DNA of 64,000 bases from Asticcacaulis sp. ZE23SCel15 (GTDB lineage: Bacteria; Pseudomonadota; Alphaproteobacteria; Caulobacterales; Caulobacteraceae): assembly GCF_030505395.1 (NCBI RefSeq), contig NZ_CP130044.1:667001-731000 (forward strand). Direction: 5' to 3'. A program made the position numbers and the translations under genes. The notes under the pieces are model-generated. The model did not search any database, was not told the DNA's origin, and was given only the letters and a program-made list of their open reading frames with translations. Shown in pieces: positions 34,104-42,014 of this stretch (the stretch's first letter is position 1; each line of letters begins with the position of its first letter).

Positions 34104-34338
34104 CGACCCTACCTTCTCTAGTTTTAAGGCAGGATAGATCGGCACGGTTAAAATTCTTACCTGAGTTGCAATTCCCACAGCCCAAAGTTTTGTTATGCGC
34201 CGCAGTTGCCAGTTTTGAGGCGGTGATGTACGGTAACAGGTGAAGCCGCCCCATGCGACTTCCGGGCCGTAGTAAGCCTGATAACGAGTGGTTGATGCTG
34301 GCCATTTCCAGCACACTTTCCTTTTGACCTCTTTGTGG

Positions 34339-34418
34339 TCGGGGAGCCTATGGCGTATGCAATAGGCCCCGGCTAAAGGCCATAGGGACCGTCTCGTTAC
34401 GGTTTACTAACTCCCCGA
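34339..34418 (+). ncRNA. Candidate structured RNA or leader with three pairing stems
   Basis: TCGGGGAG (34339-34346) pairs with CTCCCCGA (34411-34418), CCTATGG (34347-34353) with CCATAGG (34380-34386), and ACCGT (34388-34392) with ACGGT (34399-34403). Together they form a branched structure of 80 bases. It ends 71 bases before the XRE regulator ATG, and a separate imperfect hairpin (34441-34461) lies just before that gene. The strand is assumed. It may be a leader, a small RNA or a DNA hairpin used in transfer. No known family is recognised. Confidence 0.4.
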
Positions 34419-34489
34419 TCTCCAAAGGTTCTGAAGCTGACCAGGCGGCACTGCCACCTGGCCTTCACACAAAAGGAAGGAGTTAGATT

Positions 34490-35790: not shown

Positions 35791-36678
35791 CTATTCTGCC
35801 TTCGCTTTTTCCGTGGCTTTGGCCAACGCATCTAAGAAAGCGGCAACCTGGCCGAACGCATCCTGTTGCCACTGATCCTCGCTCCTCTCCCCAAGGGCCT
35901 GAGTACCCCTAACGAATTCACGGACATTAACGGGCCCAACATGCTCGAAGGACTGGAACTTATCCGCGATATATTGAAATCCCTCCGCACCAGACTGTTC
36001 AGCCAAAAGCGGAACACACTGCGCAGCCAAAGCCTCAATGCCCTGCGGGAAATTGCGGATACAGTAGTAGATATCATAGGCATCCTTGGGCTTGTCGCGC
36101 TTACCGATCGCATGCCCTTTCATGGCAAGCAGAGCCGGGATGGACGCAATAGCTATCTCCACCCGATTGATGCCGCCTCTTGGCATGGTACCCTCGATCG
36201 CGACCATTTCAGCGAACTTCAATGCTAGGTCGGCACCATCTGCACGCTGAACCGCGAAATCATCCAGGAAAGGTGGGTCGTGCTTTTCCAGCTTGACGTT
36301 GCGAGGCATTAGGAAGTCGACATAAATGTCGATGGGCGCACCCCCGTCGTTAACGCGCACCGTGCGGACAAGCTGAAACCGCCGCCGCTCGCCTTTCTGT
36401 GCGTAACCGCTAATTAAGAGCGCCTTGACCAAGTCCACGTATTCGCTTTCCCTTAGGCCTTCGGCGTCAAGGCTGAGATCTACGTCGAGCGTGCCAACGT
36501 GCCGCATATCGTCATTATCAAGCAACAGCCAAGGGACGGCGCCACCGATTAACACAAACTTTCCGCGGAAGGCGCCAAGAACTTGGCCTATCTCTACCAG
36601 TACCGATCGAACGGCCGTTTTTGAGCGATCATCATAGTCGACAGCTGACTGGGGGTCTTTATTGGGAGTTAAGACCAT
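35791..36678 (-). CDS. AbiEii-type nucleotidyltransferase, toxin of a type IV-like pair
   Basis: A 295-residue protein of the nucleotidyltransferase AbiEii/AbiGii family. It shows the NTase core FVLIGGAVPWLLLDN followed by HVGTLDVDLSLD (the two acidic residues after GG-x-x) and a third acidic position in PIDIYVDFLMPR. The C-terminal KPKDAYDIYYCIRN is a typical AbiEii block. In known AbiE systems the toxin transfers nucleotides to tRNA or another target and is blocked at the transcription level by AbiEi. The start overlaps the end of the antitoxin gene by 10 bases. Confidence 0.85.
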   Translation of the reverse strand: MVLTPNKDPQSAVDYDDRSKTAVRSVLVEIGQVLGAFRGKFVLIGGAVPWLLLDNDDMRHVGTLDVDLSLDAEGLRESEYVDLVKALLISGYAQKGERRRFQLVRTVRVNDGGAPIDIYVDFLMPRNVKLEKHDPPFLDDFAVQRADGADLALKFAEMVAIEGTMPRGGINRVEIAIASIPALLAMKGHAIGKRDKPKDAYDIYYCIRNFPQGIEALAAQCVPLLAEQSGAEGFQYIADKFQSFEHVGPVNVREFVRGTQALGERSEDQWQQDAFGQVAAFLDALAKATEKAKAE

Positions 36679-37757
36679 TGCAGCATTGCCTTGCGCAGAA
36701 CATTAGCGGATTCGAAGCCGCGATCACCAGACACCGATAGGTCTAGATAGGTTTGAACGGGGCTCGTGCACCAAATCCCTTCAGTCGGTTCGATCGCATC
36801 CCAGATCGGACCTTCATCCTTCAAGACGGTGATCTGAACATTTTCGCCGTGTCCAGATGCGGTCAACTGTAGTGCAGACTTCAATCGCTGAAGCCCGCGC
36901 TTATCAGCGTAAAAGGTTTCCGAACCAACCCGCGCATAAGGCGCCATCCACTTAGCCGCTGAGAAAGATGACAACACGGCTTGTCCTATGTTTGAATGCG
37001 TCCCCAAGACGTCGCGAAGGGCAAACGTGAACTGGTTCCCGTGCAAGGTCGTGTAAAAGGAATATGTCTCCCCCGCTGGCTTCGTGTAGACCTTCTGCCA
37101 TGCCTCCAGTAGCTCGATGGGCTTCGTCAAAACGATGCCCTGGCTTTGATCAGAAGCAAAACCCTTTTCGATAAGTGCCTTTCGGACATTGCTGACCAAC
37201 CCGAGGCTCACCGCCGCTTTCAACCGAAGCTCATCGACCCGCCATTGGCGCCATGGTCCCGTCTCCAGTTCCGGCAAGCCGGGAACCGTCTTTAACATGA
37301 CGCGAAGAACTGAAGCCGCCTTAGGCGAAAACAGAGATTTGAACTCACGCTTTTCCTTGAACGGATTATCCTCAGATTGCCTTTCGATATAAAGCCCATC
37401 GACCGCAATCCGGGCGTTCCCAGCCAGGTCGAAATAGGACACTTTTTCTTCCTCACAAAAGGCCCGAACGGCTTCCGATAGATAGGGAGCGACAAACACA
37501 GGAAACGCATTGGGCCCAAAGGCGCCTATATCGCGCTTCAGCTTGTAGATCGCTAGCTCCGCTACCTTTGGCTGACCGTTACTTTTCACTTCACAGACTA
37601 GAATGGATTGTCGTCCTTGGTTTGAGATAGTTACGACAATGTCCGCCCCTGCGGAGTCCGATCTATCCTCTTCTTCCACGAATTGAGCATCAAGGCCAGG
37701 CACCCGCCCAAGAAGGGTAACCAGCGCGTCACGGGCATCTTGTTCTGTTTGTTTCAT
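36669..37757 (-). CDS. AbiEi-like antitoxin with a nuclease-like N-terminal domain
   Basis: A 362-residue product from the ATG at 37757; 13 more codons are possible upstream. The N-terminal 100 residues have a PD-(D/E)xK-like pattern (GADIVVTISNQGRQSILVCEVKSNGQPK, Asp and Glu-x-Lys), unlike short AbiEi proteins. The middle has a winged-helix-like region (RVDELRLKAAVSLGLVSNVRKALIEKGF), and the C-terminal part matches the repressor-type domain of AbiEi relatives. It directly precedes the toxin, with the 8-bp palindrome upstream as a likely operator. Whether the nuclease-like core is active is not known. Confidence 0.8.
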   Translation of the reverse strand: MKQTEQDARDALVTLLGRVPGLDAQFVEEEDRSDSAGADIVVTISNQGRQSILVCEVKSNGQPKVAELAIYKLKRDIGAFGPNAFPVFVAPYLSEAVRAFCEEEKVSYFDLAGNARIAVDGLYIERQSEDNPFKEKREFKSLFSPKAASVLRVMLKTVPGLPELETGPWRQWRVDELRLKAAVSLGLVSNVRKALIEKGFASDQSQGIVLTKPIELLEAWQKVYTKPAGETYSFYTTLHGNQFTFALRDVLGTHSNIGQAVLSSFSAAKWMAPYARVGSETFYADKRGLQRLKSALQLTASGHGENVQITVLKDEGPIWDAIEPTEGIWCTSPVQTYLDLSVSGDRGFESANVLRKAMLQWS

Positions 37758-37769
37758 TGCAGAGACCAC

Positions 37770-37787
37770 TTTCACCAGATGGTGAAA
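37770..37787 (-). promoter_or_regulatory. TTTCACCA-GA-TGGTGAAA palindrome upstream of the AbiE-type pair
   Basis: TTTCACCA (37770-37777) and TGGTGAAA (37780-37787) are perfect mirrors around two bases, 13 bases upstream of the antitoxin ATG. A related half pair, TTTCA...TGAAA (37837-37841, 37850-37854), lies further upstream. AbiEi repressors bind inverted repeats in their own promoters. Confidence 0.65.
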
Positions 37788-38331
37788 ATTATTCATTTGC
37801 TGAAATATGTCAAGATTTTTTCATTAAAATCCAAATTTTCACCGTGCGATGAAATTGAATTTTTGATGAAATTAAATTCGCCTCTCGCGCGAGGTTATGC
37901 GATATTAGTATAAAGGACGGCACAAAGGCGAAAATGAAGCGAGCCAACACCCTCGTCTTGACCAGTAGCAGAATTTGCCAATAGGCAAGGTTACCAAGCC
38001 CATGATTTCCGACCGTCACAACGAATACAAGGCTAAGGGCCTGCTCGGCAAAGGACAAGCGTCGCAGTAGCGGTGGTCATAACGCCGTTTTGGCTGAACC
38101 CTTGTGCTGCGGAAAACCCCCGTCGGGAGCCATACCTGGCAGGGCCCTACCAGATTGATACAGCCCACAACCCGCTACGCGGCGGATACCGCCACTAAGT
38201 AGATTCCGGCGCGCCATCGGTGATGAACATTGGGCCTATTATCGCCACAAGAATTGGTTAACCATTGATTGATAAGGTGAGTTGACGAAATCGCGTGTTC
38301 ATGTTATGTTCTTCGCCGGAACGAGGTTTAC
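37788..38331. other. Intergenic stretch, AT-rich left half, no gene seen
   Basis: Bases 37788-37920 are AT-rich, with TTTCACC/GATGAAA repeats and ATGAAATTGAAT/ATGAAATTAAAT direct repeats (37850-37877), likely promoter DNA. Short frames (82 codons or fewer) have no ribosome site or family pattern. The part from 38060 to 38330 has no feature I can support apart from two small hairpins. Confidence 0.4.
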
Positions 38332-38559
38332 ATGCTGCGTTACAATCAAGAAAAACCTTTTTCGAGGCCTAGGTGCAAACATTGCAGACGCATGTGGACG
38401 CCAGAAAACGGTAAAAATACCAGGTTCGACTATTGCGGTGCGTGCTCCGCCGAGCGCAAGATGACGGCCACCAGTTCGCTATCGTTGAGAAAGCTGGACC
38501 GAAGCGACGATCAAAACGGTTATGTCTTGCCGAGAGCACTGCGAAAAGCCTCGCGCTAA
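38332..38559 (+). CDS. Small zinc-ribbon-like protein
   Basis: A 75-residue protein with CKHC (res 15-18) and CGAC (35-38), spaced by 16 residues and read as a four-Cys zinc ribbon (RCKHCRRMWTPENGKN...FDYCGACSAERK). GAGG lies 9 bases before the ATG. The C-terminal half is basic. The stop overlaps the end of the kinase gene, which converges on it. It may be a small DNA- or RNA-binding regulator of the element. It is short and unsupported by family, so confidence is modest. Confidence 0.5.
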   Translation: MLRYNQEKPFSRPRCKHCRRMWTPENGKNTRFDYCGACSAERKMTATSSLSLRKLDRSDDQNGYVLPRALRKASR

Positions 38560-39590
38560 GGGTTGTTTTTGAAAAACTCTTGAAGCTGCCGATCGACTTC
38601 CTTTCGAGAAAGAATGTCATCTCCGCCCCCTAAAGTGTGCGTCTTGCCCGTTTTTAAAGGTTCACTCCATGCATGCCACTCGTGGTCACGAGCATTGTGA
38701 CGCTGCCATAACACGCTCACTTTGCGAGGTCCTTTAACTCGCTCCCACCTTATTTCTTTAGGTGTAACGCTGCACGACCATTCAGGAGTTGGGAGCCTAC
38801 TTAGTGCCGCAAAAAGTTCAGTGGCAGTTTGCACCCGTTTGTCAGGCGAATCATGAAGCATTTTTCTTATAATTCGACGCCACTCATCAGGGATATGGGG
38901 CAGCCACTTCAGAGTCTTGCAGTAGTCGCCATCTTGTACAACCGTTCGTGGCAACGGCGCTGCCGAGTACCAGCTCGAGCCATGCAAAAGCCTATACAAT
39001 GTCATTCCCATACTCCAGATGTCCGCCTTGACACTGGTGCCGCCGCCCGCCCAAACTTCTGGTGCTATATGGTCAGAATATCCGGCTTGAGAACCATACC
39101 CCAAAATGAGGTTGTCCGTGACAAGTCCGAAGTCACCCAATTGAGCGACGCCTGAACCACTAATCAAGATATTTCCGGGTTTAATGTCACGATGCAACAT
39201 GCCTCGGCTATGTAGCGATTGCAGTCCGAGTGTGATTTCTGTCGCCACCTTTCGAAGACGGTCGAGCTTCATCGGTCCTGCATCGTATACACCTTGCAAA
39301 GAACCACCGGCGCAATATTCCATAGCGAAAACGATACTGTCATCAGTCTCATCTTCGACCAGATGATGAATTTGCACTACATTCCGGTGCGAAGCTGCCT
39401 TCAGGTTCTGGGCTTCCTTCAATAAGCCCTGTTTTCTCGCCGACCATTCCGCATCCGGTTTCGTTGGATCCTTTTGAATTCTTTTAACTGCCACGGCACC
39501 GTGCACTGGGTCTTGCCCCATATAAACATCGCCAAAAAACCCACTGGCGATATGCTTACCGATAATCAGACCGGATTTAAAACTAGCCAT
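38556..39590 (-). CDS. Hanks-type Ser/Thr protein kinase with unknown C-terminal domain
   Basis: A 344-residue cytoplasmic kinase. The full set of kinase motifs is present: IGKHIASGFFGDVYMG (glycine loop), VAVKRI (ATP lysine), a Glu in KEAQNL, MLHRDIKPGNIL (catalytic loop), LGDFGL (metal Asp) and HIAPEVWAGG (APE). So the kinase is probably active. The last 80 residues (from WERVKGPRKVSVLWQR) form a separate small domain that I do not recognise. There is no membrane segment. It starts three bases after the end of the RuvC-like gene, so the two form an operon. Kinases in such elements have been linked to phage sensing or abortive infection in other bacteria; the role here is inferred. Confidence 0.9.
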   Translation of the reverse strand: MASFKSGLIIGKHIASGFFGDVYMGQDPVHGAVAVKRIQKDPTKPDAEWSARKQGLLKEAQNLKAASHRNVVQIHHLVEDETDDSIVFAMEYCAGGSLQGVYDAGPMKLDRLRKVATEITLGLQSLHSRGMLHRDIKPGNILISGSGVAQLGDFGLVTDNLILGYGSQAGYSDHIAPEVWAGGGTSVKADIWSMGMTLYRLLHGSSWYSAAPLPRTVVQDGDYCKTLKWLPHIPDEWRRIIRKMLHDSPDKRVQTATELFAALSRLPTPEWSCSVTPKEIRWERVKGPRKVSVLWQRHNARDHEWHAWSEPLKTGKTHTLGGGDDILSRKEVDRQLQEFFKNNP

Positions 39591-39593
39591 GCC

Positions 39594-40055
39594 CTATAGC
39601 CGTGACGCCAATAACAGCATCGCAGCCTCACGACTACCGCTGCGCAAATGAACACCGGCAATTTCAGCCGTCCAAAATGCCTCGTCCTTCAGGTATTCGT
39701 CCATTTTTCGATTGCCGAAATTGCGACTGATGTTGTTCTTTGCAAGCACGGAAACGTTAGCAACAGAACTTGCGGCCGCGCATATAACCACGCCTCGGAG
39801 TTCTGCAGAAGTTAGGTGCGATAACTTCGTGCTACTGGAAACAGCGCTCGCCTTCACAATTACTTTCTCGACGCGCTTACTGCCGAGAAAGTCAGCAATT
39901 TGATGGTGCATAAATTTATAGGCATCAGCGCGATTGCCGGTTTGCATTGTCCAGGTTACATCACACTCGATCACCATGGGACCAGAGGCGGGCACTGTTG
40001 CCCCCACTATTGTGACCTTATCGCCTACCACCGCAATTCCGACCCAATGCCCCAT
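39594..40055 (-). CDS. RuvC/RNase H-like fold protein, probably inactive, kinase partner
   Basis: A 153-residue protein upstream of the kinase. The strand order (HWVGIAVVGDKVTIVGATV, PMVIECDVTWTM, a helix RADAYKFMHHQIADFLG, then VEKVIVKASAV) and the following TSAELRGVVICAAASSVANV resemble the RuvC pattern (V-x-E, then ARG-VV-LAAA). The first-strand Asp is missing, and the Glu position reads Lys (VIVKAS), so nuclease activity is doubtful. The match is by eye and weak. Role unknown; the operon suggests that it is a target, sensor or partner of the kinase. Confidence 0.6.
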   Translation of the reverse strand: MGHWVGIAVVGDKVTIVGATVPASGPMVIECDVTWTMQTGNRADAYKFMHHQIADFLGSKRVEKVIVKASAVSSSTKLSHLTSAELRGVVICAAASSVANVSVLAKNNISRNFGNRKMDEYLKDEAFWTAEIAGVHLRSGSREAAMLLLASRL

Positions 40056-41192: not shown

Positions 41193-42014
41193 ATGCTTGG
41201 CAAATCATCACCTATTCCAGATCATATACTTGAAGACGACAAGCTGAAAGGACGGGTTACAACCGGACTTGCGACGGCGGCATCTTCGGCACTTACGAAA
41301 AGCGACTGGAAATTTGCGGCAGAAAAAGGCGGTTATTCGGACAGCCTAGATGGGCACCGACGTTTTTACAAGAGCCTCGATTTCGGTGACGACGACTACG
41401 AGGGTAATGTCCTCACTTTAGTGAAATATCTTTTCGATGAAATGCCGTTGGAATTCGTCGAACTGTTCAACCATCCCAAGGTGCAGGCCCGGCTTATGCA
41501 ACGCGACCCTGCCTTAGTCGATTTATGGAGAGGCGAAGCCGATCCGGTACTGGTCGCGGTGGCACACGCCTTCGATGAGATCAAGGCCGTCAGTACCAAC
41601 ATCGATCTATCACAATATGCGTCTCGGATTAATGCCGCTCTGCCCGGCGACCCCAAGCAGGCCATTGGCGCCACTAAGGACATGCTCGAGGCCGTTATGC
41701 GGACCATATTGCATCGCACTGGACATCAGGATGTTGACGATCTGGACTTCCCGGGCCTCACGACCCACACATTCAATGCCTTGGGCCTTACAGAGGCCAG
41801 TAAGCCCTCTACCGAGGGCGAGGGACTTGTCAGGAAAATAGCCAGCACGGCCAGGAAAATGATTCTGACAGCCAACGAGTTGCGGAACCATCTTGGCACG
41901 GGCCATGGGCGGAACGTCGATGAAGAGGAGGACCTGTCCGCAGACGATGCCAGCATGGTGGCCTCAAGCGGGCTGATTCTGGCCGCTTGGCTGATAAAAC
42001 GCGCCGGCATTTGA
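41193..42014 (+). CDS. Abortive-infection C-terminal (Abi_C) domain protein
   Basis: A 273-residue protein. The C-terminal half (from about res 145) matches the Abi_C pattern: RINAALPGDPKQAIGATKDM and MLEAVMRTIL, LNALG-like segment, then ANELRNHLGTGHGR and an ending AAWLIKR. Abi_C is found in abortive-infection and anti-phage proteins. The N-terminal 140 residues (SSALTKSDWKFAAEKGGYSD, GNVLTLVKYLFDEMP) are less familiar. It is the last gene of the element before the right border and probably has its own promoter in 40936-41192. Confidence 0.82.
   Translation: MLGKSSPIPDHILEDDKLKGRVTTGLATAASSALTKSDWKFAAEKGGYSDSLDGHRRFYKSLDFGDDDYEGNVLTLVKYLFDEMPLEFVELFNHPKVQARLMQRDPALVDLWRGEADPVLVAVAHAFDEIKAVSTNIDLSQYASRINAALPGDPKQAIGATKDMLEAVMRTILHRTGHQDVDDLDFPGLTTHTFNALGLTEASKPSTEGEGLVRKIASTARKMILTANELRNHLGTGHGRNVDEEEDLSADDASMVASSGLILAAWLIKRAGI

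Follow-up and report, generated by a model that had tools for sequence, protein, structure and literature searches.

A predicted RuvC-fold protein that apparently lacks two catalytic acids is paired with a Ser/Thr kinase in a possible antiphage cassette

Introduction

Kinase-based phage defence is, to our knowledge, represented by few examples. In PMC11341870, KKP is described as a module of Ser/Thr kinases that is carried by prophages, gives protection against lytic phages, and works both as a toxin–antitoxin and as a defence system; its kinases become toxic once the partner phosphatase is inhibited by a phage protein. The same paper names Stk2 of Staphylococcus. PMC3564112 describes Stk, the kinase of prophage 933W, which is termed a tyrosine kinase and aborts infection by HK97. 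Here we describe a cassette of three genes, which we designate A, K, and Z, within a 64,000-nucleotide stretch of Asticcacaulis sp. ZE23SCel15 DNA that was analysed as a whole (the window).

Comparison between the cassette and the described systems revealed that (i) KKP comprises two kinases and a phosphatase, whereas the cassette comprises one kinase (K), a predicted RuvC-fold protein (A), and a four-cysteine protein (Z), with no phosphatase; (ii) K shares 26.9% identity over residues 17–300 with the stk genes of phi24B and similar phages, and 933W-type Stk has been described as cotranscribed with the cI repressor; (iii) K matches the PD-T4-6 kinase of PADLOC (E 5.2e-41) over the kinase domain only, PD-T4-6 is a single-gene kinase, and K has a fixed partner gene; (iv) K matches the MAD6 kinase of MADS (E 7.4e-56), again over the kinase domain only, and its score against the NCBIfam model of MAD6 (NF047741), 94.9 bits, is below the curated cut-off of 460; and (v) the RuvC family (PF02075) shares its fold with A over the whole length of the A model, but A is only about 12% identical to it, has no acids at two positions, and sits with a kinase. 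Searches of the open-access PMC literature gave no description of a pair of a RuvC-like, RNase H-like, or resolvase protein and a kinase.

Organization of the cassette

The first-pass annotation had presented A and K as a two-gene unit in which the kinase starts three bases after the small protein. Both open reading frames (ORFs) are present as described, with a gap of 3 nt between A and K (Table 1), and the pair itself is conserved. The unit is not confined to two genes, however, because a Z homologue, which had been overlooked, is found at the same place in 13 of the 14 A–K loci.

Table 1. Positions of the cassette features and neighbouring defence-like genes in the window, and settings of the 13 related loci.
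Feature or locus	Position	Strand	Description	Basis or match
AbiEii-like and AbiEi_2-like pair	35791–37796		just beyond Z	over Pfam cut-offs
Gene Z	38332–38559	+	75 aa; four-cysteine protein, convergent with K	ORF and homologues
CTAA common to the K and Z stops	38556–38559	both strands	TAG of K (-), TAA of Z (+); 4-nt overlap	
Gene K	38556–39590	-	344 aa; Hanks-type Ser/Thr kinase	Pkinase match and motif columns
C-terminal domain of K, residues 271–344	38559–38780	-	five strands and a helix in the predicted model	no family match
Gene A	39594–40055	-	153 aa; RuvC-fold protein (predicted)	ORF, predicted model, and residue columns
AbiJ_NTD5 and Abi_C protein	41193–42014		divergent from A	over Pfam cut-offs
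L011			Sinorhizobium meliloti plasmid pHRB800, conjugative	ShosA, E 4.6e-75
L017			viral contig; between tape-measure and minor-tail genes	
L018			viral contig; beside endolysin or chitinase-like gene	
L019			Rhodobacterales BW5	
L020			Sphingomonas gilva; near integrase	
L021			Rhodospirillales MAG; near tail-lysozyme gene	
L022			Mesorhizobium ES1-1; near VapE-like gene	
L023			Jiella mangrovi	
L024			Erythrobacter; Shedu nuclease adjoining	SduA, E 6.2e-137
L025			Rhizorhapis suberifaciens; near ArdC anti-restriction gene	
L026			Novosphingobium Chol11; Eco57I-type methylase and ResIII helicase (restriction-modification) directly upstream	
L027			Sphingobium Leaf26; near recombinase; HEPN/Toprim gene directly upstream of A	UG6 reverse transcriptase, E 3.3e-272
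L029			viral contig; beside S24-type repressor	

Structure of the A protein

The AlphaFold2 model of A, built from 12 sequences, has a pLDDT of 86.7 and a pTM of 0.82. Comparison of this model with known structures revealed that (i) the best 12 rows of a Foldseek search against the PDB were all RuvC (best E 2.7e-8); (ii) the model superposed on T. thermophilus RuvC (4ep4) in VIA-align with a Z score of 18.0 and 2.4 Å over 147 of its 153 residues; (iii) the next structural neighbours in VIA-align were the chloroplast resolvase (Z 13.4), TEFM (13.0), and Spt6 (12.4), with Tex also among them; and (iv) many phage RuvC-like resolvases from a viral library matched it. By contrast, profile comparisons at the sequence level did not retrieve the family. 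A alone gave only chance-level rows in Pfam and NCBIfam and no PADLOC match, PF02075 was absent among the Pfam families that matched any of the 12 A members at E values up to 1, and profile–profile alignment of A with RuvC gave a probability of 0.4%. The assignment is therefore founded on the predicted model, according to which A has a RuvC/RNase H-like fold over its whole length. That is to say, the RuvC likeness claimed for the small protein in the first-pass annotation is upheld end to end by structure prediction but not by the profile–profile search.

We take the catalytic acid positions of RuvC to include a Glu at the fourth-strand place occupied by Lys68 in A. The residue correspondence between A and RuvC was derived from the full-length superposition together with a weak profile alignment. 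Residue 8 of A, located in the first strand and Ala in the window, is Ala, Ser, Thr, Ile, or Val and never an acid in all 12 aligned rows, and residue 68 in the fourth strand is Lys in 12 of 12; the A protein of L029, which lies outside this alignment, has the same residue pattern. The catalytic acids that the earlier reading had found wanting thus appear to be lost at two positions, and one may survive as Glu143, which belongs to a Ser-Arg-Glu motif (residues 141–143) that is invariant in the last helix throughout the 12-row alignment. Because acid positions of RuvC are lost, A is very probably not a nuclease, as judged from its sequence and predicted model.

TEFM, Spt6, and Tex use the RuvC-type fold and are not known to cut. 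Their place among the next neighbours of A, together with the RuvC fold across its full length, would be compatible with a module for the control of DNA repair or recombination, in which a junction-bound dead resolvase recruits the kinase to mark repair or replication proteins without any link to phages. A patchy presence and neighbourhoods of mobile and defence genes, both of which apply to the cassette (described below), are unlike a repair function, and we regard such a role as improbable.

Structure of the K protein

K scores 148.3 bits against Pkinase (cut-off 31.7), and the catalytic motif columns, comprising Lys36 (the ATP lysine), Glu59, HRD Asp135, Asn140, and DFG Asp153, are invariant in all 12 rows, in agreement with its initial description as an intact Hanks kinase. 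The Pro of the APE motif is retained in 3 of the 12 kinases. The K model (11 sequences) has a pLDDT of 83.9 with a poorly predicted activation loop, and its residues 4–267 align with PknB with a Z score of 26.7.

The kinase domain is followed by a C-terminal domain (Table 1) that is predicted with block-mean pLDDT values of 91–96 for residues 271–340 and 87 for residues 341–344, and that carries invariant Trp and Arg positions across the aligned relatives. Nothing convincing matched it among the sequences of solved structures or in Pfam; a structure search with the whole of K returned kinases throughout and is uninformative on this domain, which may conceivably resemble AP2 or arm DNA-binding domains. 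Among 250 genomes of the class, with at most 22 candidates scored per genome, the domain was found in the genome of the window only. A row in G246 from the same search contained internal stops and was rejected.

The Z protein

Z of the window has the cysteine arrangement C-x2-C-x16-C-x2-C. Cys15, Cys18, and Cys38 are invariant in all 12 aligned rows, and the third cysteine is displaced in 2 of the 12 (L017 and L023). We infer that Z binds zinc; family searches with Z gave only weak zinc-ribbon-like or other matches. A dN/dS ratio was obtained for 6 of the 21 pairs compared among the relatives; at 0.11–0.21, with synonymous sites near saturation, it speaks for a protein-coding gene.

Linkage and distribution

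The 14 A–K loci, all of which carry A and K or parts of both, comprise nine genome contigs and three viral contigs found with A profiles, the window, and the S. meliloti plasmid locus found via K; the matches in G733 and G946 were counted as the same loci as L023 and L019, respectively. Among the 12 distinct loci found via A, K lies directly downstream of A in every one, truncated in one of them (L020), and the pairing of A and K is therefore beyond chance. With 14 A–K loci altogether, the conservation on which the first-pass annotation had made its proposal depend is evident.

The A–K gap, measured in the window and 11 of the other loci (all but L011 and L020), ranges from -13 to +3 nt. The overlap of K with Z is exactly 4 nt in 10 of the 12 loci measured and 14 nt in L024; in L017 the two genes are instead 109 nt apart. 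The genes are disrupted in two loci. In L011, only the front part of A precedes an IS5-family element, whose other side borders the start of K, and K and Z are 5 nt apart; in L020, the similarity to K ends at residue 211, and a search for Z found none. Pairwise protein distances over 12 loci correlate between A and K (r 0.898) and between K and Z (r 0.895), which would fit joint inheritance of the three genes, although shared descent alone also gives such correlations.

These relatives emerged only after the search was widened to the phylum and profiles were used. Single-sequence searches with A of plasmids, phages, viral contigs, and genome contigs found nothing, and neither did A of L025 against plasmids or A of L018 against phages. 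Because the plasmid search with A missed the A fragment that is present on pHRB800, these blanks reflect limited reach and not absence. Searches matched only the genome of the window for 249 Sphingomonadales genomes, matched 2 of 297 genomes in the order of G733, and gave 2 good matches (the genome of the window and G733) with 4 further weak rows among 398 genomes of the phylum, so that the presence of the cassette appears sparse and patchy. The following weak rows were judged to be chance: that in G557, antisense to a gyrB-like ORF (by eye); those in G469 and G213, which contain internal stops; that in G083, inside an unrelated 487-aa ORF; and those in G237 and G372, where ORFs resembling an ABC transporter and queA were recognized by eye. 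A weak row also occurred in G465.

Genomic neighbourhoods

Recurrence beside defence genes, which had been named beforehand as a sign of a defence role, was observed in 5 of the 14 loci (the window, L011, L024, L026, and L027; Table 1). In the window, the two Abi-like neighbours flank the cassette on both sides; the AbiEi_2 match spans only residues 223–370 of 375, and the AbiJ_NTD5/Abi_C gene is separated from A by 1.1 kb without an ORF over 90 aa. PADLOC gave a weak AbiEii match (1.2e-5) on the window and made no call for the AbiEi- or AbiJ-like genes. Over 110 ORFs of the 14 loci, PADLOC matched SduA, UG6 reverse transcriptase, a reverse-transcriptase-associated nitrilase, ShosA, and a type II methylase at 1.4e-49 to 3.3e-272, whereas 14 stretches taken at random from the window's genome (112 ORFs) gave 8.3e-31 (BstA) as their best match; this comparison sets the best 25 of 72 families for the loci against the best 25 of 52 for the control, and the control, drawn from the chromosome of the window's genome, is matched neither to mobile DNA nor to the 13 genomes of the remaining loci. 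The pooled 110 ORFs further matched RmrA, mad2, mad8, and Drt1a with 2 members each. The ORFs of both sets were picked by length and codon-position score, and some of them are not genes.

Several neighbouring arrangements were observed in addition. In L027 (L027:1139-7879), the UG6 reverse transcriptase is followed by a nitrilase-like gene (by eye), the HEPN/Toprim gene, and A. A ShosA-like DprA protein in L011 (L011:4404-6540) is accompanied by a HAD hydrolase and a protein annotated as a phosphoribosyltransferase, and the three might be a Shosta-type system. A 910-aa protein with a DNA_pol_B_2 match directly precedes A in L024 (L024:4934-7666). Two ORFs of L025 (L025:2464 and L025:6214) have about 45 residues in common close to the N terminus, so that a sequence repeat occurs in the vicinity of the cassette.

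Genes of prophages, integrative elements, or plasmids lie on or near 9 of the 14 loci, and four settings are prophage-like (L017, L018, L021, and L029). In L017, A and K are oriented against the surrounding tail genes. Transposon- or recombinase-like genes were recognized in L023 and L024 by eye only. Among the neighbours scanned, no mobile-element genes were found in L026 and the window, and neither defence nor mobile genes were recognized in L019.

Copies of the cassette occur on prophage-like contigs and a conjugative plasmid and close to genes for integrases or recombinases, and the position of the small partner gene hardly varies. These features would also suit a toxin–antitoxin-like or lysogeny-control module resembling KKP, which is both toxin–antitoxin and defence according to PMC11341870. 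In such a module, K by itself would be toxic or regulatory and A or Z would restrain it, so that the cassette keeps its element or controls a prophage and defence is secondary. We consider this unlikely, as the cassette lacks a phosphatase, neither A nor Z matches antitoxin or phosphatase families, and A is conserved as much as K (mean identity among relatives 56% and 55%, respectively).

A tool of prophages and integrative elements for anti-defence or host takeover is a further reading, to which the four prophage-like loci and the one near an ArdC anti-restriction gene could be assigned. Other copies stand with Shedu, reverse transcriptase, AbiE, and restriction genes, and the orientation of A and K opposite to the tail genes in L017 is like that of a gene expressed in the lysogen. 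We therefore hold this reading to be very improbable.

Proposed mode of action

The predicted RuvC fold without acids, the intact motifs of K, the linkage of A and K, the near-constant presence of Z, and the mobile and defence neighbours, together with the DUF3010–kinase pairs at 3 further loci (described below) and the precedents of the 933W kinase and KKP, point to A–K–Z as a mobile, kinase-based, abortive-infection-like antiphage cassette, a reading to which these sequence data give an even chance. Against it stand (i) known defence neighbours in only 5 of 14 loci, compared with a control from the chromosome rather than from mobile DNA, so that other genes carried by mobile elements could give a similar picture; (ii) the retention of the APE Pro in just 3 of 12 K proteins; (iii) L019, with its lack of defence or mobile neighbours; (iv) the AbiEi- and AbiJ-like genes of the window, which PADLOC does not call; and (v) the DUF3010 loci examined (described below), most of which have no kinase.

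For the antiphage cassette, we infer an antiphage activity, a target of A, activation of K by A, substrates of K, and a role of Z as follows. A would keep the junction-binding RuvC scaffold with cutting lost, and would most likely recognize branched or replicating DNA made by the phage, or a phage protein acting there. It would then activate K, probably by way of the β domain at its C terminus, and active K would phosphorylate host or phage proteins, whereupon phage growth would stop. Z, encoded on the opposite strand, would most likely act as a small regulatory protein or a brake, if not as a substrate.

Kinase-based phage defence is already known; the cassette would possibly add a new class to it if A proves to be the sensor of the trigger. 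The kinase would likely be switched by a second protein that has the fold of a DNA-junction enzyme but is dead as such, and this suggests triggers that can be tested. Tentatively, and with somewhat more doubt than confidence, the proposal may be extended to a new immune signalling family, in which a dead Holliday-junction-resolvase fold senses, or acts as bait for, structures that arise in phage recombination or replication and gates kinase activity via a new C-terminal domain, the convergent zinc-ribbon gene is a third component, and DUF3010–kinase pairs form a distant branch.

Relationship to DUF3010

PMC3985635 assigns DUF3010 to the RNase H-like superfamily, close to the Holliday junction resolvases, and its text does not contain the word kinase; DUF3010 is also mentioned in PMC10441182. 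Three of the 12 A members match DUF3010 (PF11215) at E values up to 1, the best at 0.019 and below the curated cut-off, and profile–profile alignment of A with DUF3010 (hhalign) gave a P value of 4.2e-4 and a probability of 34% over 75 columns. The A profile matched the DUF3010 protein of G416 with an E value of 0.0012 in a one-sequence search. At the fourth-strand place, DUF3010 has Lys in 4 of 6 rows and Arg in one. By contrast, the first-strand acid is present in 5 of 6 DUF3010 rows, and A has no acid there.

Pairs of DUF3010 and a kinase were found at 3 loci: (i) in G416, the last 8 nt of the DUF3010 gene are also the first of the kinase gene; (ii) in Rhizobium sp. BG6, the kinase start overlaps the DUF3010 gene (profile E 7.4e-34) by one base; and (iii) on plasmid pHG1 of Cupriavidus necator H16, two DUF3010 fragments (E 2.5e-7 and 4.4e-5) precede the kinase. 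The latter two are the plasmid records examined of the 448 that match the G416 kinase, among which another C. necator record and that of R. grahamii have the same scores. Beyond the A–K loci, a kinase thus stands next to an RNase H-like protein in a further, more distant group of loci. Z was absent at all three of these loci when looked for, and comparison of the C-terminal domain of K with that of the G416 kinase did not show homology (E 0.14).

DUF3010 is not generally a partner of kinases, as most of the DUF3010 loci examined have none. Among 160 genomes, 12 DUF3010 loci were found, 11 of them over the cut-off, and no kinase lies within about 1.5 kb of 11 of the 12, the exception being G416; likewise, no kinase lies beside the 3 plasmid DUF3010 loci examined of the 8 found. 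A search of 199 genomes from the order to which G733 belongs detected no DUF3010, although Rhizobium sp. BG6 has one, and the DUF3010 protein of G416 found nothing among phages and viral contigs. A weak DUF3010-like protein below the cut-off (L058:1084-1911 in G498; wider stretch L060) lies beside an integrase-like gene (by eye) and has no kinase next to it. For some members of the DUF3010 family, the cassette offers a possible functional setting.

Sequence context of the window

The GC content is 0.51–0.52 at 36–42 kb of the window and mostly 0.55–0.60 elsewhere; because it is equally low at 26–28 kb (0.507), low GC is not special to the cassette island. The right flank of the island is kept in three congeners (G002, G004, and G013) at 91–96% identity, and no match between positions 36774 and 42245 was present among the matches listed for 22 congeners. 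Further to the left, positions 34338–34427 contain an sRNA-Xcc1-like element, which at 36.3 bits falls short of the gathering score (53) and short matches to which recur in several congeners, and the segment 33889–34789 has a second copy with 90% identity at G000:C1:280326-281231.
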